Below, one piece after another: positions 3,798-14,006 of a stretch of DNA of 64,000 bases. Both the position numbers and the translations under genes were made by a program. The notes below the pieces were generated by a model, which did not search any database, was not told the origin of the DNA, and saw only the letters and a list, made by a program, of their open reading frames with translations. This stretch comes from Candidatus Collinsella stercoripullorum (lineage in GTDB: Bacteria; Actinomycetota; Coriobacteriia; Coriobacteriales; Coriobacteriaceae). The DNA is taken from NCBI GenBank assembly GCA_019117005.1, contig DXAO01000014.1:1-64000 (forward strand), given 5' to 3'. How positions within the stretch are numbered: the first letter of the stretch is position 1; every line of letters starts with the position of its first letter.

Positions 3798-3995
3798 GGC
3801 ACCTCCTCTCGTCGTCTCTATGAGTGTATCCAGCGCCGCGGGGTCACGCGGGGTCGGAGGGTCACTTTAAGCGGACCTTAAGCAGGGCGACGGGGCGAAA
3901 CCGGAGCGCCCGTCTGCGCGCGCGGGGAGGAGCACGCGTGTTTCCCCAGCTCCAGAGCCCGTCGCCACATTTTCCCAACGACCGGAGATTCCCGC

Positions 3996-4023
3996 TTGCG
4001 CGCCGCGCGGTTTACGGTAAAAT
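3996..4023 (+). promoter_or_regulatory. promoter of the tRNA-Ser pair
   Basis: TTGCGC (3996-4001) and TAAAAT (4018-4023) are spaced by 16 nt, 16 nt in front of the first tRNA. This suits a stable-RNA promoter. Confidence 0.65.
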
Positions 4024-4039
4024 TGCCTATGCATTTCAC

Positions 4040-4130
4040 GGAGAGTTGTCCGAGTGGCCGAAGGAGCACGATTGGAAATCGTGTAGGCGCCAAAAGCGTC
4101 TCCAGGGTTCAAATCCCTGACTCTCCGCCA
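4040..4130 (+). tRNA. tRNA-Ser (anticodon GGA)
   Basis: The 7-bp acceptor GGAGAGT/ACTCTCC, a D arm, the anticodon loop TTGGAAA, a long variable arm typical of class II tRNA-Ser (GTAGGCGCCAAAAGCGTCTC) and a T arm GGTTCAAATCC are all present. The 3' CCA is encoded (4128-4130). It reads UCC/UCU codons. Confidence 0.97.
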
Positions 4131-4178
4131 GCATCCTCTCATGGCGCGCCGTTTGACGCGCCATGTTTCACTCCATGC

Positions 4179-4271
4179 GGAGGAGTGGCAGAGTGGTTGA
4201 ATGCGGCGGTCTCGAAAACCGTTTATCCGGTGTTCCCGGGTACGAGGGTTCGAATCCCTCCTCCTCCGCCA
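4179..4271 (+). tRNA. tRNA-Ser (anticodon CGA)
   Basis: The acceptor GGAGGAG/CTCCTCC, anticodon loop CTCGAAA, a long variable arm and a T arm GGTTCGAATCC are visible, with the CCA encoded at 4269-4271. It reads UCG. It lies 48 nt behind the GGA isoacceptor and is probably cotranscribed with it. Confidence 0.97.
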
Positions 4272-4280
4272 TTTTTTCCT
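4272..4280 (+). terminator. T-run ending the tRNA transcript
   Basis: Six thymines follow the encoded CCA of the second tRNA directly. The tRNA stems themselves would supply the structure. From here to 4508 I see no gene. Confidence 0.5.
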
Positions 4281-4508
4281 AACAAGCAAATACACCCTCA
4301 CGCCCAGGGCGCCCTTCTGCACCCGTGCAGGAGGGGTTCGAACCCGCAGGGCGCGGAGCCGCGGGGACGCGCCGAGCGTCCCCCGGCCCAGCGCGCGAGG
4401 CCGGGCCGGAGGGCCGGCCTCCGGGCCACAGGACGGCGGGCGCCCTGCGCTCGCGGGTGAAATGCCGGGCATGAAGCCGACCCCCTACTTGTTCGGGCGG
4501 CGCGCGGG

Positions 4509-4514
4509 TATACT
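4509..4514 (+). promoter_or_regulatory. candidate -10 element of lemA
   Basis: TATACT lies 73 nt upstream of the lemA start in an otherwise GC-rich region. A good -35 at 16-18 nt is not visible; TTGTTC lies only 14 nt upstream. Confidence 0.4.
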
Positions 4515-4586
4515 TTATCGATACCCGGCGGATTCCATAGGAGGCCGGCACATCCGCGAGCGGGCTTCGCCCGGAATGGAGTGAGC

Positions 4587-5138
4587 ATGATCCCGATCAT
4601 TATCGGCATCGTCGTCGTGATCATCATCGTCTGCGTGATCGCGGGCATCTACAACAACATGGTCACGCTGCGCAACCGCATCGACAACGCGTGGCAGAAC
4701 ATCGACACCCAGCTGCAGCGCCGCAACGACCTGATCCCCAACCTCGTGGAGACCGTCAAGGGCTACGCCTCCCACGAGAAGGAGGCGCTCGCCGCGGTCG
4801 TGAACGCGCGCAACGCCGCCACCGCCGCCGCCACCCCCGAGGACAAGATGGCCGCGGACAACATGCTGACCGGCGCGCTGCGCCAGCTGTTCGCCGTCGC
4901 CGAGGCCTATCCCGACCTCAAGGCGAACACCAACTTCATCCAGCTGCAGACCTCGCTCGAGGACACCGAGAACAAGGTCTCGTACGCGCGCCAGAGCTAC
5001 AACGACTGCGTGCTCAACTACAACAACGCCATCCAGACCTTCCCCGGGGTCATCTTCGCGGGGATCTTCCAGTTCAAGGAGCGCTCCGGGTTCGAGGCCG
5101 ACGAGGCCGCGCGCACCGTCCCGGAGGTCAAGTTCTAA
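4587..5138 (+). CDS. lemA: LemA family protein
   Basis: This 183-residue LemA-family protein has an N-terminal membrane helix (residues ~1-22, IPIIIGIVVVIIIVCVIAGI) and then the family signature YNNMVTLRNRIDNAWQNIDTQLQRRNDLIPNLVETVKGYASHEKE. The helical body ends with YNNAIQTFPGVIFAGIFQFKERSGFEAD. LemA proteins are small membrane-anchored helical proteins of uncertain role. The ATG at 4587 is preferred over an in-frame GTG at 4581 because GGAG sits 5 nt before it. The usual TPM/DUF2207 partners are absent, so it stands alone here. Confidence 0.92.
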   Translation: MIPIIIGIVVVIIIVCVIAGIYNNMVTLRNRIDNAWQNIDTQLQRRNDLIPNLVETVKGYASHEKEALAAVVNARNAATAAATPEDKMAADNMLTGALRQLFAVAEAYPDLKANTNFIQLQTSLEDTENKVSYARQSYNDCVLNYNNAIQTFPGVIFAGIFQFKERSGFEADEAARTVPEVKF

Positions 5139-5170
5139 CCGGTCCGCACCCTGTCATCTCAGGATCGATC

Positions 5171-5250
5171 GGGCGCCCTTTCGGTACGAACGACCCCGTT
5201 TCCCGAACCGGGAACCGGGGGTCGAGCGTTCTCGCCGACAGGGCGCCTTT
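5171..5250 (+). terminator. nested hairpin after lemA
   Basis: An inner stem (CGACCCCGTTTCCCG at 5191-5205 against CGGGAACCGGGGGTCG at 5209-5224) is enclosed by an outer GGGCGCC pair (5171-5177 and 5241-5247). TTTCTGTTG follows. It probably ends the lemA transcript. Nothing further is seen up to 5476. Confidence 0.6.
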
Positions 5251-5476
5251 CTGTTGAAAAGCCCTTGGGAAGGCCTTCCCGCGCCCCGCCTCCTCATGCG
5301 CAGGTCTGGGCGGTAGCGATTAGCCGCATATTCCTAACCGTGCTGCCCGCTCCCCCGCGCGCAGGCCAGGACCCCCTGTCGATAACCCCTTGTCGCAATC
5401 TTCCCGATATCCAACATGAGACTCAGCATCTCCGCAGGTAAACCATATCGTTTTACTCTCCCGTCGAGCTGTCTCG

Positions 5477-5485
5477 TGCTACGCT
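5477..5485 (+). promoter_or_regulatory. extended -10 promoter, possibly giving a leaderless transcript
   Basis: TGCTACGCT matches the extended -10 form TGnTAnnnT. Its end is 6 nt before the ATG at 5492, which has no ribosome-binding site, so transcription could start at or next to the start codon. Confidence 0.45.
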
Positions 5486-5491
5486 TCCCCC

Positions 5492-6676
5492 ATGTGCGGA
5501 AAGCTGCTGGACAAATCGGCGGTCATCTGCGACCTGTCGGCCTGGGCGTATTGGTCGACGCCGCCGATCGTACGGGATACCGACATCCCCCTTTCGGTCG
5601 CCACGAGCCTCGAAGGGCTCGGTATGCCCCCGCGCATGTTCTCCCTGCGGCGCGATTCGAGCGAGCCCGAGGCTCGGATCCGCGGCAGATTGCTCGGAGA
5701 CCTCAAGGGGATCCCCCTCCCCATCAGCGTGCTCATCGGACCCGATGCCGGCCGCAGGCGTACGCGGACAGTCGCCCCTAGGAAGATGCGCATCGACCTG
5801 AGCGACGACGACCTCGTCGACCTCGGCGCGGGCCTGTACGTCACCTCCCCCGAGGCGACCTTGCGCCACCTTGCGCGCAGACTCGAGCTCGGCGCGCTGC
5901 TCATGCGCATGTACGAGGCGTGCGGTCTGTACGCGATCTGCCCCGGGACCGCGAGGGCGCGCTACGTCGTCCGCGAGCTCGTCTCGGGCGGCCTCCTCGA
6001 CCGCGACGTCGTCCGATCGTGGGAGCATTTCCCCGCGTACTCCGAGCCCTCCGGAAGCAGGGTCGCCTATGCCGACGACGCCCCCTGGGCCCCGTGCTTC
6101 AAACGGAACGGCAGCATCACCGACCTGTGGAAGCGCCCGCCGCTCACACGCGGCGAAGCCCTGCTGGAATCTATCGACCGCGTCGCCGCCCCGAAGGGGG
6201 TGCGCGGCCTGGCGCTCGCCCGGCGGGCGGCGGAGCAGGTCCTCGACGGCTCGGGCTCCCCTCTCGAATCGCGATGCGCCATCCTCATGTTCACCGCCCG
6301 CGAGCTGGGCGGCGAAGGCTGGCCGCGGCCGCACCTCAACCGGATCATCGAGCTGGACGAGAGCGGACGGAACCTGAGCGGGCAGAGGAGCTGCGTCGCG
6401 GACGCCCTGCTCCCCTCCCTGAACGCGATCATCGAGGTCAACGGCGAGGAATACCACGCGGACGAGTGGGGCTTCGCCGAGCGGTCCGGCAGGCTCCATG
6501 CGCTCGAGGGGATGGGATACACGGTGTTCGAGGTCATCGACGACCATCTCCGCGACCTCGATAAGCTCGATGACATGATGAGCGCCTGCGCCATGAAGCT
6601 CGGACTGCCGTTCCGCCCCAGGCTCTCCGATTTCGTGGTCGCAAGGGACGCTTTGCACCATCAGATCTTCAGTTGA
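5492..6676 (+). CDS. AbiEi/DUF559-like orphan protein
   Basis: This 394-residue protein has the two-part look of actinobacterial proteins related to AbiEi-type regulators with a DUF559 (Vsr/PD-(D/E)XK-like) end. The middle part reads VTSPEATLRHLARRLELGALLMRMYEACGLYA. The C-terminal part (residues ~311-350) reads IIEVNGEEYHADE, then RLHALEGMGYTVFEVIDDHL, matching the 'xxVDGxxH...R...L...Gy.V' core of DUF559 apart from an Asn in place of the usual Asp. No AbiEii-type nucleotidyltransferase partner is present. It may be a nuclease-fold DNA-binding or host-defence remnant. A TGCTACGCT box and no Shine-Dalgarno precede the start. A MITE-like element lies just downstream, so the locus may be mobile. 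Confidence 0.55.
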   Translation: MCGKLLDKSAVICDLSAWAYWSTPPIVRDTDIPLSVATSLEGLGMPPRMFSLRRDSSEPEARIRGRLLGDLKGIPLPISVLIGPDAGRRRTRTVAPRKMRIDLSDDDLVDLGAGLYVTSPEATLRHLARRLELGALLMRMYEACGLYAICPGTARARYVVRELVSGGLLDRDVVRSWEHFPAYSEPSGSRVAYADDAPWAPCFKRNGSITDLWKRPPLTRGEALLESIDRVAAPKGVRGLALARRAAEQVLDGSGSPLESRCAILMFTARELGGEGWPRPHLNRIIELDESGRNLSGQRSCVADALLPSLNAIIEVNGEEYHADEWGFAERSGRLHALEGMGYTVFEVIDDHLRDLDKLDDMMSACAMKLGLPFRPRLSDFVVARDALHHQIFS

Positions 6677-6978: not shown

Positions 6979-8220
6979 TCAGTAGCCCAGCGCCTGGAGG
7001 GCGAACATGACCACGGTCAGCACGGTGATGATGACGATGGTGGCCCAGGTGAGCACGTTCCAGGCCCTCCCGTTGCGATACCGCCCCATGATGTGCCGGT
7101 CCTGGGCGATAAGCAGCAGGAACACCAGCAGGACCGGCAGCAGCACGCCGTTGATGACCTGCGCGCTCATCATGATCTGGAACAGGTCGACGCCCGGCAT
7201 GATCACCAGCAGGGCGGAGGCGGCGATCACCGCGGTGATGATGCCGCGGTACACCGGCGCCTCCTCCCAGCTGCGGTCCGCGCCGCGCTCCCACCCGAAG
7301 GCCTCGCAGATCGCGCTCGAGGTGACCCCGGGCAGCACGCACGCCGCCAGGAAGCTCGCCGCCACCAGCCCGGAGGCGAACAGGATGGTCGAGAACTCGC
7401 CGGCGATGGGCTCCAGGGCCAACGCCGCATCGGCCGCGTCGGACACCTGGATGCCGGCCGGATAGAGCACCGCACCCGTCGTGACCACGATGAACCATGC
7501 GACGGCGCACGCGATGACCGAGCCGCTCGCGGTATCGATGCGCTGCAGCACGATCCCGCTCTCGTCCACGTTCTTGTCCACGACGTTGTTCTGGGCGAGG
7601 AAGACCATCCACGGCGCGATGGTGGTGCCGATGGTCGCCACCAGCAGGGACACGTACTCGGGCTCGGCGATGACGTGCGGCGAGACGGTCGCCGCCGCGA
7701 CCTGGCCCCAGTCCGGCCCCGCGAGGAAGGCCGCGACCACGTAGGTCACGAACACGCAGCTCACCGCGAGGAGGATCTTCTCGATGCGCCGGAAGCTCCC
7801 CGACATGGTGAGCATCCAGATCAGCAGCGCCACGAGCGGCACGGACACCGTCTTGGGCACGCCGAACAGCGCGAGCCCGCTCGCGATGCCCGCGAACTCG
7901 GAGATCGTCACAGCCGTGTTCGCGATCAGCAGCGCCGTCATCGCGAGCGCGCTGCGCCGCACCCCGAACTTCTCGCGGATCAGCGACGCGAAGCCCTTGC
8001 CCGTCACGCACCCGCAGCGCGCGGCGGTCTCCTGCACCACGATCAGGAGCACCGCCATGACGGGCAGCATCCACAGCGTCCCGTAGCCGTAGCTCGCCCC
8101 CGCGCTCGAGTACGTGGCGATCCCGCCCGCGTCGTTTCCCGAAAGCGCCGCCAGCAGCCCGGGGCCCATCGCCCCGAGCACCATCCCGACAGTCAGCTTC
8201 TCACGATTCCCGTTTCCCAT
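6979..8220 (-). CDS. NRAMP (SLC11)-family transporter, Mg2+-type variant
   Basis: This 413-residue protein is a multi-pass NRAMP-fold transporter. The family's TM1 motif DPGN appears as D30-A-G-G33 in GPGLLAALSGNDAGG. In TM6 the MPHN motif is replaced by A203-P-W-M206 in TIGTTIAPWM. Loss of the TM6 methionine that selects Mn2+/Fe2+ is the hallmark of NRAMP-related magnesium transporters, one of which has been characterised from the Coriobacteriia member Eggerthella lenta. The gene starts 21 nt after an MgtE-like gene, so both belong to one operon, which supports Mg2+ as substrate. Short length and 11 likely helices fit the family. Substrate is an inference. Confidence 0.8.
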   Translation of the reverse strand: MGNGNREKLTVGMVLGAMGPGLLAALSGNDAGGIATYSSAGASYGYGTLWMLPVMAVLLIVVQETAARCGCVTGKGFASLIREKFGVRRSALAMTALLIANTAVTISEFAGIASGLALFGVPKTVSVPLVALLIWMLTMSGSFRRIEKILLAVSCVFVTYVVAAFLAGPDWGQVAAATVSPHVIAEPEYVSLLVATIGTTIAPWMVFLAQNNVVDKNVDESGIVLQRIDTASGSVIACAVAWFIVVTTGAVLYPAGIQVSDAADAALALEPIAGEFSTILFASGLVAASFLAACVLPGVTSSAICEAFGWERGADRSWEEAPVYRGIITAVIAASALLVIMPGVDLFQIMMSAQVINGVLLPVLLVFLLLIAQDRHIMGRYRNGRAWNVLTWATIVIITVLTVVMFALQALGY

Positions 8221-8241
8221 TTCGCACCACCGGGTCGCCGT

Positions 8242-10146
8242 CTAGCACGCGATGAGGAAGATGGAGAGCGCGGATGCGACAGAGTACAGCGCGCAGAAGA
8301 TCAGCACCGCCGAGACGCTCATGGCCGTGCCCGACGTGTTGAGGTCGTGCTCGTCGCGCCAGAACAGCACCTTGAGGTAGACGACCGACACCGCGCAGCA
8401 CAGGAAGGTCACCGCGGCCGCGCACGCGAAGCTCGTCGAGAGCGCCCACGCGGACATGACCTCGCCGGACAGCACCGTGCTCACGGCCAGCGGGCCGCCG
8501 GGGGCCGCCACCAGGGAGAGCACGTCGTCCGGGTACGCCGCGCCGAGGACGAGCTGGCCGCAGAGGAAGACCACCGCCGCCAGGACCGCGCCGAGCAGCA
8601 GCGTCTGAAGGAAGAAGCCGAGGTAGGGCTTGTCCTCCCCGTCCGACTCGTCGTATTCGAGGTAGTAGTTCCTCACGAACGAGACCACGCGGCTCGATGC
8701 GATCAGGACGACCGGCATCGCGCACATGGGGTAGACGACGTACGAGCCGCCGACCCCGCACCACTCCAGCGCCGCCGCGATGATGCCCGAGGCGACCGCC
8801 CACACGAGCACCCAGTACTGCCGCCGCGCGAACCACGAGAACACGTGCATCGACTCCCCGGTGCCCGCGTCGCCCGAGCCGACGCCCGCGATCTGCAGGT
8901 CCTCGGCGTGCTCCTCGTTCATGACCTCCATGGCGTCGTCCACCGTGACGATGCCCAGGATGTGCCGGCGCTCGTCGCACACGGGGATGGCCGCGAGGTT
9001 GTACTTGGTCATCTCCTCGGCCACCTCCTCCTGGTCCACATCGGGCGCGACCCACACGAGGTCGCGGTACGCCAGGTCCTTCAGGCGCGCGTCGCGGTCG
9101 GCCACGATCAGCGTGCGCAGCGACAGCACGCCGGTCAGCGCGCCGTCCGCATCGGTGGTGTAGACGTAGTAGACGCTCTCGAAGTCCTCGTCGAGCCCGC
9201 GCAGGCCCTCGATGGCGTCGGCCACGGTCGCGGTGGCCGGGAGCGCGACGAACTCGCTGGTCATAATGCGTCCCGCGGTGTCCTCCTCGTATCCGAGCAG
9301 GGTGCGGATGGCGCGCTCCTCCTTGACGCCCATCAGGCGCAGGAGCTTCTCGGCCTTCTCGTAGTCGAGCTCCTCGATGAGCGCCGCCGCGTCGTCGGGG
9401 TCCATGAGCGCGAGCATGGACGACGCGTCGCGGTCGGACAGGCCCTCGAGCATCTCCGCGACGAGCTCGTCGTCATCGAACTCGGAGATGGCCTCCGCCG
9501 CCTGGGCGGTATCCAGCTGGGCGAACACCTCGCCGCGCAGGCGCGGGTCCAGCTGCTCGATGATGTCGGCGATGTCTGCGGGGTGCAGCTCGCCCAGGGT
9601 CTTGTGGGACACCGAGAGCTTGATCGTCTGGGTCGAGCGCTCGAGCAGGTCCATGTACGACCAGGCGATGATCTCCTCGGGGATCGGCTTCCCCACGGCG
9701 CGGGCGAGCCGGACCGCCACACGCTCGAGGGCCGGGTGCAGCGCCCGCAGAAGCCCGCGTGCGCCGACCTCGGCGCCGAGCAGGCGCAGCTGGTTCTCAC
9801 CGGAGGTCGACAGTTTGATATCGTTCACGCGCACGACCTTGAGCCCCTGCGTGTCCACGATCTGCTTGTTCATGATGTCGCGGGCGAGCAGGACCTCGTC
9901 GGGCTGCAGGTAGGAGAAGCGGATGTCGGTGGCGGGCACCTTGAGGTAGACCCCGTCGTCATCGAAGCGCTCGACGTACTTGCGCCAGGAGATCATGAAC
10001 GGCGTCTTGCCCGGGCCCTGGAAGGCCAGCGAGGTCACGTGCGGGAAGACCTCGCCCGTGGCGATGCCCAGGTCGTTGACGATGCCGATGCGCTCGCCCG
10101 TCGAATCGACGACCGGCAGCCTGAGCATCTCGGAAAGGTAGTTCAT
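8242..10146 (-). CDS. PRC-barrel + MgtE-N + CBS pair + divergent five-helix membrane domain
   Basis: This 634-residue protein opens with a PRC-barrel-like region (~1-75, LRLPVVDSTGERIGIVNDL). An MgtE N-type helical repeat domain follows (~150-290, LGELHPADIADIIEQLDPRLRGEVF and DPDDAAALIEELD), then two CBS domains (~295-420, GRIMTSEFVALPA and GIVTVDDAMEVM). The last ~185 residues hold about five membrane helices. The MgtE pore signature GGNxGxQ is absent (PVVLIASSRVVSF stands at the comparable place), and the last helix lacks the Mg2+-binding Asp. It may therefore be a sensor or regulatory subunit for the neighbouring NRAMP-type protein. A GAAGGAG site 4 nt before the ATG lies in a hairpin. 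Confidence 0.75.
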   Translation of the reverse strand: MNYLSEMLRLPVVDSTGERIGIVNDLGIATGEVFPHVTSLAFQGPGKTPFMISWRKYVERFDDDGVYLKVPATDIRFSYLQPDEVLLARDIMNKQIVDTQGLKVVRVNDIKLSTSGENQLRLLGAEVGARGLLRALHPALERVAVRLARAVGKPIPEEIIAWSYMDLLERSTQTIKLSVSHKTLGELHPADIADIIEQLDPRLRGEVFAQLDTAQAAEAISEFDDDELVAEMLEGLSDRDASSMLALMDPDDAAALIEELDYEKAEKLLRLMGVKEERAIRTLLGYEEDTAGRIMTSEFVALPATATVADAIEGLRGLDEDFESVYYVYTTDADGALTGVLSLRTLIVADRDARLKDLAYRDLVWVAPDVDQEEVAEEMTKYNLAAIPVCDERRHILGIVTVDDAMEVMNEEHAEDLQIAGVGSGDAGTGESMHVFSWFARRQYWVLVWAVASGIIAAALEWCGVGGSYVVYPMCAMPVVLIASSRVVSFVRNYYLEYDESDGEDKPYLGFFLQTLLLGAVLAAVVFLCGQLVLGAAYPDDVLSLVAAPGGPLAVSTVLSGEVMSAWALSTSFACAAAVTFLCCAVSVVYLKVLFWRDEHDLNTSGTAMSVSAVLIFCALYSVASALSIFLIAC

Positions 10147-10152
10147 GGCGCT

Positions 10153-10210
10153 CCTTCGAGAACAGGATGGAAAGCTATGGCGCGCTACCCCGGCGCGCGC
10201 CGCTCGAAGG
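10153..10210 (-). promoter_or_regulatory. ribosome-binding-site-sequestering hairpin in the mgtE-like leader
   Basis: On the minus strand CCTTCGAG (10210-10203) can pair with CTCGAAGG (10160-10153), which contains the Shine-Dalgarno of the downstream gene. A second stem GGCGCGC/GCGCGCC (10201-10195 and 10185-10179) stacks inside. The leader upstream is A/C-rich (GTGAAACCCAAACCCCGACC, 10255-10236), unlike the coding DNA. This suits translational control, possibly by a ligand. Confidence 0.5.
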
Positions 10211-10275
10211 GCGTCCGCCAGGGTCAGCTACTGTGTGGTCGGGGTTTGGGTTTCACCGCGTTCCTTTCGACTGGC

Positions 10276-10496: not shown

Positions 10497-12338
10497 CTAG
10501 AGGGCGGGGAGGGCCGCGTCCTCGGGCATCTCGACCGCGCCGTTGACGACGTCCTCGGGGAAGCGCCCGTCGAGCTCCATGAGATCGGACACCGTGACCA
10601 GCTCGTATCCGTCGGCGCGCAGCCCGTCGATGATGGCGGGGAGCGCCTCGACGTCCTGGCTGCGGTTTCCTCCGCCGTCGTGCATGAGCGCGATCGCCCC
10701 GTTGTAGGCGTTCGTGAGCACGTTGTTCGTGATCGAGGACGCCCCGGGCAGCTTCCAGTCGAGGGTGTCGATGTTCCACAGCACGTTGCAGCTGATGAGG
10801 TCCGCCGACCGCGCCCACTCCGTGGCGGTGAACGCCCCGTACGGCGCGCGGATCATCTGCGGCCTCACGCCCGACGCCTGCTCGATGGCGTCCGCCGCCG
10901 TGGTGATCTCCGAGCGCAGCGTGTCGCGGTCGCAGGTGGGCAGGTTCATGTGCTGGTTGGTATGGCTCGCCAGCTGGTTGCCGTTGTCGACGACCGTCTT
11001 GGACCGCGCGCCCGCGTTTCCGCCGAGGTTGAAGAAGGTCGCCTTGGCGTTCTTCTCCTTGAGGATGGCGAGGATGGCGTCGGTGTAGCCGCTCGGGCCG
11101 TCGTCGAAGGTGAGGGCGATGTACTTCTTGTCCCCCTTCGGCTTGGGATTGAGGGCGCTCACCACCATGTCGACGGGCTCCTCGATGACCTCCTTGTCGA
11201 CGGTCTCGCCGGACTGCTCGCCGGTCCAGACCACCTTCTTGCCCGCCTTGCCCCACTGCGACACGAACTGGATGGCGCCGCTGCCGTCCATCTGGATGCC
11301 GGGCAGCGCGTCGACCGTCTCCTCCTTGTAGGGCTCGACCGCGTCCGCACCGTCGGCCACCGTGATCTGGGAGTCGTCGACCACGCGGGCCTCGACGAGG
11401 TCCTCGGCTTCGAGCTGCTCCCCGTCGAAGGTCACCGCGCAGCGGTCGCCGCCGTCCTCGGAAATGACGTTGCCGCCCACCGAGAGCAGCCGTCCGGCCT
11501 TGACGCCGAAGTAGTCGTTGTCCTCCAGCAGCTGCTGGACGCTCGTGTTGATCTGGACGGTCCGCTCCTCGCCGTTGACGCTGAACTCGACGCTGCGCCA
11601 GAAGAACTGGTAGCCGATCCCCAGCGCCGCCGCGATGACGATGACGAGCGCGGCGCCCGCGGCGATCAGCGGCGTGCGCTGGCTCGATTGCCGATGCGGG
11701 TGCACGTAGCGCGGGGTGCGCGCGGCCGGGGCGACCCCTGCGCGGACCGCGCGGCCCGACGGGGACGCGGCGCGGCCGGAGGGCGCCTGGGCGTGCGGCC
11801 GGCCCGCGTCGGCAGGCCGCTTGCGGGGATGCGCAGCGGCGGGATGCGCCGCCCCCTGCGCCTTCGCCGCGGGCGCGGACTGCTCGGAACCGGGGCCGGG
11901 GGCCGTGGGTTCGGACGGGACGCCGGCCTTGACGCCGGCACCCTGCCCGGTGGAGGCACCCGGCGCGACGGCCTTCTTGACGCCCGGGGTGCCCGGGGCG
12001 CCGGCCTTGACGCCGGGCTTTCCGGCATCGCGGGCGGATGACGCGGACGCGTGCTGCGTCCTGCCCGCGGCCGTACCCTGCCCCGCCGAGGCGTGCGGGC
12101 GCGCCGGGCGCTGTCCGCCCGTCGCCGAGTACCGATGCGGGGCGGCCGAGCCGCCGATCTTGATCTGCAGGGGCTTATGGGTCCCCGCGGAACCCCGATG
12201 CCCCGGATGCGAGGGGGCTCCCGTCCCGGCGGCATGCCCCGCCGGGCGCGGTTCCCGCCCGTTCTGCGCGCCTTCCATGCTGGAACGGGCATCCGTCGCG
12301 CGCGGGACGTCCCGTCCGGGCTGCTTGCTGTCGCTCAT
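10497..12338 (-). CDS. membrane-anchored polysaccharide deacetylase (NodB family)
   Basis: This 613-residue protein has a ~220-residue Ala/Gly/Pro-rich, basic cytoplasmic region and one membrane helix (~224-247, TPLIAAGAALVIVIAAALGIGY). An extracellular DUF348/G5-like part follows (~250-300, VEFSVNGEERTVQINTSVQQLLED), then the NodB deacetylase domain (~405-590). Catalytic motifs are intact: TFDDGP (410-415), HTNQH (459-463), RAPYG (497-501) and LMHDGG. The family removes N-acetyl groups from peptidoglycan or other glycans. The ATG at 12338 is preferred over a start 60 nt upstream because the family look begins there, though its ribosome-binding site is weak. The next gene upstream is a degenerate paralogue. 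Confidence 0.85.
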   Translation of the reverse strand: MSDSKQPGRDVPRATDARSSMEGAQNGREPRPAGHAAGTGAPSHPGHRGSAGTHKPLQIKIGGSAAPHRYSATGGQRPARPHASAGQGTAAGRTQHASASSARDAGKPGVKAGAPGTPGVKKAVAPGASTGQGAGVKAGVPSEPTAPGPGSEQSAPAAKAQGAAHPAAAHPRKRPADAGRPHAQAPSGRAASPSGRAVRAGVAPAARTPRYVHPHRQSSQRTPLIAAGAALVIVIAAALGIGYQFFWRSVEFSVNGEERTVQINTSVQQLLEDNDYFGVKAGRLLSVGGNVISEDGGDRCAVTFDGEQLEAEDLVEARVVDDSQITVADGADAVEPYKEETVDALPGIQMDGSGAIQFVSQWGKAGKKVVWTGEQSGETVDKEVIEEPVDMVVSALNPKPKGDKKYIALTFDDGPSGYTDAILAILKEKNAKATFFNLGGNAGARSKTVVDNGNQLASHTNQHMNLPTCDRDTLRSEITTAADAIEQASGVRPQMIRAPYGAFTATEWARSADLISCNVLWNIDTLDWKLPGASSITNNVLTNAYNGAIALMHDGGGNRSQDVEALPAIIDGLRADGYELVTVSDLMELDGRFPEDVVNGAVEMPEDAALPAL

Positions 12339-12614
12339 CGTTACATCCAGATCCGCTGCATACCCCTGTGCCCGCAGCGTATGGGCGCGTGCGGGCACCG
12401 ATCGCTCTCATTGTCACGGACGTCCGTCGACATTCCGTCTACACGCTGGAGCCGGCGACGTCCTCCTCGGCCATTGTAGCCCGAAACCGGGCGACGGGAC
12501 GGTTTCCGCAGCCCTTCAGCAACCGCATCGCGCAACCGTTGACGGATGGAGGACGGGCTCGGAACGGGAGACCGGGCATCGCCGCGGAAGCGGGAACGCC
12601 AGCCGAACGCCCGC

Positions 12615-14006
12615 TTACGCGTCCTGGTCCGCCGTATCCTTCTTCACCTGCGGAAGCGCCGCGTCATCCGGCATGGAGACGCGGGAGACGTCGAGCTCCT
12701 CGGCGAGCTCGGAGTCGGTCGCGATCAGGTCGGACAGGCTCACGAGCGTGAAGCCCTGGGCCTGCAGGCTGTCGATGAGCTGCGGCAGCACCTCGACCGT
12801 CTGCGCACCGGTCGTCTCGTTGTCCGTCAGCAGGATGATGTTGCCGTTCGCGACCGAGCCCATCACCGTATCCACCACGGAGCCGGCGCCCGGGAGCAGG
12901 TAGTCGCCCGAATCGAGGTTCCAGCTCACCACCGCGCTCACCAGGTCCATCGACTCGCTCCACGAGGACTCGGAGAACAGGCCGTAGGGCGCCCGCAGCA
13001 GGCTGGTCTCGACGCCGGACGCGTCCTTCACGGCATCGAACCCGCGGGTGATCTGGCTGCGCAGGTCGTCGCCGGACAGCGCCGTGAGGTCGGTGTCGCT
13101 GTAGGAGTTCGACCCGAGCTCGAACCCGGCGTCGGCGATGGCCCGGGCGGCGGCCTGGTGCTCCTCGCTGCGGTCCCCCTGCAGGAAGAACGTCGCTCCG
13201 ACGCCCTTCTCCTCCAGGATCGAGACGATCTGCTCCGTGTAGCTGCTCGGCCCCTCGTCGAAGGTCAGCGCCACGTAGGAGCCCTCGTCGGGCGAGACCG
13301 ACGTCGCGCGCACCACGCAGTCCTGCACCTCGTGGACCACGCCGCGGTCGGCCGTCTTGCCGGACACCGAGCCGACCCACACCTCCGACCGGCCGGGCAC
13401 GCCCCACGTCTGCACGTACTGGATGACGCCCGTGCCCTTCACGGTGAGCGCGGGCTGGATCTCGGTGGCGATGACCTCGTGCTCCTCGTACTCGTCGCGG
13501 CCGTTGCCGATCTCGATCGCCTCGCCTCCGGTGAGCGTGGTCGAGGAGAGGTCGTCGTTGTCGATCTGCTCGTCGTCCACCTTCACGGAGTAGCGCTCCC
13601 CGCCGCGCTTCTCCAGCACGGTGTCGTCCACCGCGAGCAGGTCGCCCGCGCGGTAGCTGAGCTGGTTGTCATCGATGAGCTGCTGGACCGAGGAGTTGAT
13701 GCGGACCGAGACGTCGGACCCGTTGAGCGAGACGGTGACGCCGCGGTTCAGATACCACACGACGCTCGCGATGAACAGCAGGGCGGCGCAGGCCACGGCG
13801 ATGATGGCGTACGGCCGGCGCGCGTCGCGGCGGCGGGGCCTCCGGCCGCTCGTCCGACGGCCGAACCCCTGCGAATGATGGAGGTACTGCGCGCCGGGAC
13901 GGCGCTGCGCGCGGCGGCGGGCGGAGGGCAGCTGGTCGCCCGTGGCGGGGCGCCGATGATGCGGCTTTCTGGGCTTGGTGGAGTAGGAGGTGGTGTAGTT
14001 AGGCAC
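12615..14006 (-). CDS. polysaccharide-deacetylase paralogue with altered metal ligands
   Basis: This 463-residue protein has the same plan as the gene at 10497-12338: a basic N terminus, a membrane helix (~66-86), a G5/DUF348-like part (VTVSLNGSDVSVRINSSVQQLIDD) and a NodB fold. Key residues differ. TFDDGP is TFDEGP (248-253), the H-x3-H metal motif is N-x3-D (GSNSYSD, 298-304), and the catalytic-His loop MHDGG is LTDNE (393-397). RAPYG is kept. It probably does not deacetylate and may bind glycan or assist its partner. The two genes are 276 nt apart, in one direction, and look like a tandem duplication. Confidence 0.8.
   Translation of the reverse strand: MPNYTTSYSTKPRKPHHRRPATGDQLPSARRRAQRRPGAQYLHHSQGFGRRTSGRRPRRRDARRPYAIIAVACAALLFIASVVWYLNRGVTVSLNGSDVSVRINSSVQQLIDDNQLSYRAGDLLAVDDTVLEKRGGERYSVKVDDEQIDNDDLSSTTLTGGEAIEIGNGRDEYEEHEVIATEIQPALTVKGTGVIQYVQTWGVPGRSEVWVGSVSGKTADRGVVHEVQDCVVRATSVSPDEGSYVALTFDEGPSSYTEQIVSILEEKGVGATFFLQGDRSEEHQAAARAIADAGFELGSNSYSDTDLTALSGDDLRSQITRGFDAVKDASGVETSLLRAPYGLFSESSWSESMDLVSAVVSWNLDSGDYLLPGAGSVVDTVMGSVANGNIILLTDNETTGAQTVEVLPQLIDSLQAQGFTLVSLSDLIATDSELAEELDVSRVSMPDDAALPQVKKDTADQDA

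Follow-up and report, generated by a model that had tools for sequence, protein, structure and literature searches.

NRMTs, the Mg2+-type importers of the NRAMP family, have been reported together with a neighbouring MgtE-like gene, the role of which was left open and for which feedback regulation was proposed (Shin et al. 2014, PMC4072509). In these NrmT operons, which have been linked to Mg2+, a gene encoding an MgtE N-domain directly precedes the NRMT gene. The same order is found in the locus described here, which lies in a stretch of 64,000 nucleotides (the window; positions 1 to 64,000 of contig DXAO01000014.1, assembly GCA_019117005.1) of Candidatus Collinsella stercoripullorum, a member of the Coriobacteriia (the class, in what follows). 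The gene for a protein with PRC, MgtE_N and CBS domains, here called the partner, comes first and an NRAMP gene second, both on the minus strand and separated by 21 bp. Unlike the small protein of Shin et al., which consists of cytoplasmic domains only, the partner in the window is 634 residues long and ends in a five-helix, degenerate MgtE membrane domain; unlike the NrmT operons, the operon in the window has a short leader open reading frame (ORF) and no M-box was found. We consider it probable that the partner is an MgtE-derived, Mg2+-sensing subunit that throttles import by the NRMT, and that the synthesis of the pair is controlled by the leader.

EleNRMT from Eggerthella lenta (PMC8806188; 7qia, 7qic, 7qji, 7qjj) has the same site residues as the NRMT of the window; it was studied without its partner, which in Eggerthellaceae carries one C-terminal helix compared with five in the window. 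The MgtE channel (2zy9, 5x9h, 4u9l) shares with the partner the MgtE_N domain, the CBS pair, the ancestry of the membrane domain and acids of the Mg4, Mg2, Mg3 and Mg7 sites; by contrast, the partner has a PRC domain and a linker in front, lacks both the GGNxGxQ signature and the aspartate of transmembrane helix (TM) 5, and is encoded beside a separate importer in nearly all genomes of the class. MgtL and CorL, encoded ahead of enterobacterial mgtA and corA (PMC11552253, PMC11282234), resemble the leader in that they, too, are short, proline-encoding ORFs within the 5′ leader of the gene for a Mg2+ importer. The leader of the window type, however, belongs to a different phylum and stands beside a different type of importer, its peptide is basic rather than acidic and has no EPDP motif (EPDP per PMC11282234), and it has a predicted pairing to a ribosome-binding site where MgtL and CorL have a demonstrated Rho switch. 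NRMTs and their MgtE-like neighbours are thus already known; as far as the literature searched shows, the pseudo-channel form with its intermediates, the test of constraint in a genome lacking NRMT, the swap to MgtA and the leader ORF are new.

An NRAMP protein with the NRMT site

An initial annotation, made from the sequence without database searches, had placed an NRAMP gene beside a gene for a PRC/MgtE_N/CBS protein, and the two ORFs and their Pfam matches bear this out (NRAMP PF01566, E=4.4e-85; in the partner PRC 1.4e-7, MgtE_N 3.5e-24 and CBS pair 3.5e-19). The closest solved relative of the NRAMP protein is EleNRMT (7qia, E=1.7e-148), the next structure matching at 4.2e-28. The NRMT site is defined by N54G, A232T and M235A in EcoDMT numbering (Ramanadane et al. 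2022, PMC8806188), and this triad is complete in the window, with Asn replaced by Gly in TM1 (GNDAGG, D30-A-G-G33) and Ala by Thr and Met by Ala in TM6 (GTTIAPWM, residues 198-205). The annotation had correctly recognised that the canonical TM6 methionine is missing (A-P-W-M) and had taken this to point to Mg2+. The absent methionine is insufficient for such a call, because the EcoDMT M235A and triple mutants show no interaction with Mg2+ (PMC8806188); what does suggest Mg2+ transport by the NRMT of the window is its close homology to the characterised EleNRMT together with the full residue triad.

We think it very improbable that the two genes handle a different metal instead of Mg2+, such as the Mn2+ suggested for A. 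capsulatum, in which NrmT with a partner rescued a Mn2+ transport defect fully and the Mg2+ defect only partly (PMC4072509). The NRMT of the window resembles EleNRMT, for which Mg2+ transport has been characterised, far more closely than it does Mn2+ NRAMPs; moreover, relatives of the operon carry M-box riboswitches, and in one genus the partner is paired with MgtA (see below).

A membrane domain of MgtE descent without the pore

Following the PRC domain, the partner has a conserved linker (about residues 81-176), and five membrane helices are predicted at its C-terminus. PF01769, the MgtE membrane domain, has no match in the partner of the window at E<1, and TIGR00400 (mgtE) scores 203.3 bits, under its cut-off of 232.75, in an alignment that stops at residue 457. 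Since a direct profile comparison of the window-clade membrane domain with MgtE is not significant (E=0.0065), homology rests on intermediates and folds. C-terminal profiles of the window clade (including two Atopobiaceae sequences) match those of the other class partners at E=2.7e-18, the latter match true MgtE membrane domains at E=4.1e-12, and partners from other families are themselves matched by PF01769 with E values of 1e-4 to 1e-7. An AlphaFold2 model of the membrane domain alone (pLDDT 90, pTM 0.85) gave five top Foldseek matches in the PDB that are all MgtE (probability 0.84 to 1.00, with weak E values of 0.04-0.5); among these structures we count 4u9n/4u9l, entitled 'structure of a membrane protein', as MgtE membrane domains because 4U9L is cited as MgtE in PMC8806188. 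By this chain of profiles and predicted folds, the C-terminus descends from an MgtE membrane domain.

As the initial annotation had noted, the partner lacks the pore signature. GGNxGxQ occurs nowhere in the partner of the window, the aligned stretch reading IASSRVVS (residues 482-489), and the last helix (residues 606-633), which has lost the TM5 aspartate (D432 in TtMgtE), contains no acidic residue. Judged as an MgtE channel, the partner fails the defining features tested: PF01769, GGNxGxQ, the TM5 Asp and the TIGR00400 cut-off. The membrane domain is also the least conserved region of the partner, two Trp being its only invariant residues across 25 sequences; between the window and a partner from another family (L037), identity is 63% in the CBS pair and 29% in the membrane part. 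Among named genomes, the partners of Collinsella and Atopobiaceae have four to five membrane helices, those of Eggerthellaceae one, and those of Chloroflexota, Thermoleophilia, Rubrobacter, Nitrospirota and Cryosericum none. Since the partners of relatives are five-TM, one-TM or soluble, the partner can do without its membrane part.

These results bear on the possibility that the partner, although divergent, still works as a Mg2+ channel or transporter and that the NRMT provides another route alongside it, with shared control. The true MgtE homology of the membrane domain, by profile chain and fold, and the retention of the partner in a genome without NRAMP, CorA or intact MgtE (G172, see below) would fit such a function. 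We nevertheless regard it as unlikely in the light of the missing pore residues, the weak conservation of the domain, its reduction to one helix or none in relatives that keep the pairing with NRMT, and the two full MgtA pumps of G172.

Two sequences outside the NRMT operons throw light on how the partner arose. In L148 (bacterium ADurb.Bin157; 3971-5836) a PRC domain is joined to an apparently intact MgtE membrane domain with GGNTGVQ and the TM5 Asp (PF01769 E=3e-30), while L130 (Ktedonobacterales; 3908-5938) is a PRC-MgtE intermediate with the partly degraded signature SGSMASQ (PF01769 1.5e-7); neither has an NRMT nearby. In a tree of the MgtE_N and CBS domains, the PRC-bearing partners plus L148 split from other MgtE with a support of 0.97, and those of the class are united in a single clade (0.999). 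L148 is probably related to the protein from which the NRMT partners descend. The simplest history is that a PRC-MgtE channel lost its pore and that the membrane part was afterwards reduced or lost; alternatively, a soluble partner gained an MgtE membrane domain.

A retained Mg2+-sensing half

TtMgtE shuts when Mg2+ bridges its cytosolic domains at the sites Mg2 to Mg7 (PMC5882242). Among 94 partners, nearly all of which adjoin an NRMT, the Mg4 acids are kept almost without exception (the D91 equivalent in 94/94 and the D247 equivalent in 93/94; D251 and D404 in the window), the E59 equivalent is E or D in 88, and the E258 and D259 equivalents are mostly kept (E415 and D416 in the window). E218 of the window partner aligns with the Mg7 acid of TtMgtE; replaced are D226 (N383) and D95 (A255). 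The ATP contacts are partly kept, with Y327 and R344 present and the Phe replaced by L384. By alignment, most, not all, of the Mg2+-sensor chemistry appears to be present, which agrees with the earlier claim that the partner keeps Mg2+-sensing soluble domains and supports the view that the cytosolic half acts in the manner of the MgtE gate.

Co-occurrence, and what happens when the NRMT is lost

In the named relatives the NRMT gene lies directly downstream of the partner gene on the same strand at 48 of the 48 loci where an NRMT was found; with order and adjacency kept to this extent, the pair is more than chance. No natural fusion of NRMT and partner is present among the named loci examined, and one long ORF that was considered as such (L105) was rejected as a frame artefact. 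The initial annotation had tentatively tied the two genes to each other as regulator and importer, and they do occur together: with cut-offs of E<1e-90 for the partner and E<1e-50 for NRMT, 198 of 248 class genomes have both, 38 neither, nine the partner only and three, which are fragmented assemblies, the NRMT only (Fisher 1.4e-32, a statistic that ignores relatedness). An intact MgtE is encoded in 16 of the 38 genomes with neither gene, compared with 3 of the 198 with both. In the MgtE_N and CBS tree, the partner-only lineages sampled are nested within the NRMT-bearing class clade.

One of these genomes, G172, belongs to the same family as the host of the window and is assembled in one contig of 2,115,681 bp. 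It has no NRAMP, CorA or intact MgtE and encodes two full MgtA pumps. Its partner is full length; at the positions that are unchanged in 74 NRMT-paired partners, it is broken at 16 of 29 in PRC, 9 of 40 in the linker, 11 of 40 in MgtE_N and 0 of 21 in the CBS pair. When each of the 74 paired partners was left out in turn, at most 2 (PRC), 2 (linker), 4 (MgtE_N) and 2 (CBS) changes were seen. The contrast between broken PRC, linker and MgtE_N and intact CBS (Fisher p=0.0009) is what would be expected if the former three serve the NRMT and the CBS pair something more general. A second genome with a partner and no NRMT, G227, shows milder breakage (PRC 3, linker 7, MgtE_N 6, CBS 1).

In the family f8, partners without NRMT differ at 16 of 29 PRC and 10-13 of 40 linker positions; this is weaker evidence than G172 because partners from other phyla that do have an NRMT differ at those positions too. 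A proposal that the PRC and linker invariants are universal NRMT contacts was rejected on the same observation. The f8 partners (L199, L200, L201, L202) retain a degenerate membrane domain, and their neighbours look like purD, or like a HAD phosphatase and 5-formyltetrahydrofolate cyclo-ligase.

A different association is found in one genus (f9; G026 and G032), in which a soluble partner of 412 residues lies 23-24 bp downstream of, and on the same strand as, a gene for an MgtA-type P-type ATPase (TIGR01524, 1041 bits); the two loci are L197:4557-7981, minus strand, and L198:16-2073, plus strand. No NRMT was found in either genome, and we therefore conclude that the partner goes with Mg2+ import and is not tied to NRAMP specifically. 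This swap is one of the observations that favour a partner acting as a general Mg2+ sensor or chaperone, co-regulated with the importer of the lineage without binding it; its survival without NRMT in f8, G172 and G227 and the lack of a co-expression effect in A. capsulatum (see below) are others. Such a role is improbable, if less so than that of a channel, when set against the very tight adjacency and order of the two genes, their joint absence from 38 genomes and the decay of the PRC, linker and MgtE_N motifs after NRMT loss in G172.

A conserved leader ORF

Alignment of the upstream regions revealed that, throughout the class, the operon is preceded by a short, conserved, Pro-rich ORF, which has a strong Shine-Dalgarno sequence. 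The peptide reads V-K-[PS]-K-P-R-P-[HY]-S-[SRC] in the Collinsella family, M-K-P-R-P-H-S-R in Atopobiaceae, [VL]-K-V-R-K-[PSQ]-K-P-H-S-x in Eggerthellaceae and V-x-P-x-S-P in f7 and others; the ORFs comprise 6-12 codons and the basic peptides contain no D or E. Proline codons differ at the third base and the stops TGA, TAA and TAG interchange, as expected of coding sequence, and because Ser is nearly always AGT there may be a constraint at the RNA level as well. Strict matches to the leader number 63 at 83 class loci, with nine more after relaxing the filter. Two whole-genome pattern searches returned one match per genome, the first in 37 of the 41 genomes of the window's genus and the second in 43 of the 248 class genomes, mostly Atopobiaceae; reversed-pattern controls gave zero matches for both. 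Wherever the position of the partner was listed, the match lay just upstream of it. No such ORF was found before the G172 partner, nor was one seen ahead of CorA or P-type ATPase genes in the regions checked.

The M-box (RF00380) has no match in the window at the gathering score and none upstream at E<=1. Outside the class, M-boxes stand directly upstream of operons of a soluble partner and NRMT in Actinobacteria (L137:1930-2134 and L136:420-588). In the class, the stop codon of the leader is followed by a segment with complementarity to the Shine-Dalgarno region of the partner gene; this complementarity exceeds that of shuffled sequences at P<=0.05 in 27 of 59 leaders, which are related sequences, and compensating variants of the predicted pairing occur (GGTGCTC:GAGCACC, GCGCTCC:GGAGCGC and GGCTTTCC:GGAAAGCC). 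When the accessibility of the Shine-Dalgarno region was predicted by folding with ribosomes in different states, no on/off direction emerged consistently. In enterobacteria, the short leader ORFs MgtL and CorL are less efficiently translated at low Mg2+, which turns on mgtA and corA (PMC11552253, PMC11282234); by analogy only, the leader described here might act in a similar manner. No description linking Coriobacteriia, a leader peptide and magnesium was found in the literature searched.

Locus and genome context

The host genome (2.22 Mb) has a single MgtE_N gene, which is the partner of the window; an intact MgtE was not found, and there are two CorA matches. The nearest named partner genes are those of C. 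tanakaei, with 83-85% identity. A second NRAMP-family protein is encoded elsewhere in this genome (L002:1372-2760, minus strand, contig C45), with GPGSL in place of DPGN in TM1 and no MPH in TM6; a dihydrodipicolinate synthase-like gene adjoins it. Upstream of the operon, positions 10497-14006 of the window encode two tandem polysaccharide-deacetylase-like proteins with similar N-terminal regions. Genes of this kind also precede the partner in G172 (L034), and the order of the locus is therefore old.

Table 1. Features of the NRMT operon and its leader; coordinates refer to the window
Feature	Position	Strand	Basis
NRMT (NRAMP-family Mg2+-type importer), 413 aa	6979..8220	-	ORF, Pfam NRAMP, EleNRMT match, site residues
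Partner (PRC / linker / MgtE_N / CBS pair / degenerate MgtE membrane domain), 634 aa	8242..10146	-	ORF, Pfam, TIGR00400
PRC-barrel domain, aa 2-72 of partner	9931..10143	-	Pfam
MgtE_N domain, aa 187-289 of partner; E218 and D251 aligned to TtMgtE Mg7 and Mg4 acids	9280..9588	-	
CBS pair, aa about 295-410 of partner; D404 aligned to TtMgtE Mg4 acid D247	8917..9264	-	
Degenerate MgtE-type membrane domain, five helices, aa about 440-634	8245..8829	-	
IASSRVVS (aa 482-489), stretch aligned to the MgtE GGNxGxQ signature	8680..8703	-	
Last membrane helix, aa 606-633, without the MgtE TM5 aspartate	8248..8331	-	
Leader ORF, GTG AAA CCC AAA CCC CGA CCA CAC AGT AGC TGA (VKPKPRPHSS*)	10224..10256	-	
Shine-Dalgarno of leader ORF (AAGGA)	10262..10266	-	
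Segment after leader stop, CCTTCGAG, complementary to the Shine-Dalgarno region of the partner gene	10203..10210	-	
Shine-Dalgarno region of the partner gene, CTCGAAGG, predicted paired	10153..10160	-	

A proposed brake derived from a channel

The suggestion of the initial annotation that the partner is a sensor or regulatory subunit rather than a channel is the best supported by indirect evidence, namely the degenerate pore, the dispensable membrane part, the sensor acids, the co-occurrence and the loss of constraint in G172. According to the mechanism that we favour, the subunit would descend from a PRC-bearing MgtE channel by loss of the ion path, with the MgtE_N/CBS gate retained. When cytosolic Mg2+ is high, this unit would compact around Mg2+ (at the Mg4 site formed by D251 and D404 and at others) and hold the NRMT closed through a PRC/linker surface; at low Mg2+ the unit would loosen and uptake resume. 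The degenerate five-helix domain may serve as a membrane anchor or scaffold, which one helix or none can replace. Synthesis of the pair would probably be set by the Pro-rich leader peptide, if translation of the leader alters access to the ribosome-binding site of the partner gene, and a response of the leader to Mg2+ is part of this proposal.

Several observations weigh against the proposed brake. The co-occurrence statistic takes no account of phylogeny. The PRC and linker invariants are absent in NRMT-bearing phyla outside the class, so that the interface, if real, must be class-specific. Partners persist without NRMT in G172, G227 and f8, where another role must have been kept or is now held. 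Finally, co-expression of the A. capsulatum partner had no further effect, and Ca_c0685 and Ca_c3329 transported Mg2+ without a partner (Shin et al. 2014, PMC4072509); it follows that the partner is not needed for transport.

A wider picture, to which we give somewhat less than an even chance, is that of a channel turned transferable regulatory subunit, a brake on NRMT first and associated with MgtA in one genus later, with its synthesis set by a previously undescribed, class-wide leader (core K-P-x-P-H-S or P-x-S-P) at the place that the M-box occupies in other Actinobacteria.

What the gene beside NRMT does has been a standing question since 2014. The membrane form of the partner, L148, L130, the genomes that have lost NRMT and the genus in which the partner is linked to MgtA are ready comparisons that make the brake hypothesis directly testable. 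If true, it would explain how a secondary importer of an ion present at millimolar levels avoids overfilling the cell, and the leader would add a second example, independent of the first, in which Pro codons govern Mg2+ import, from a distant phylum and from abundant bacteria of the human gut.

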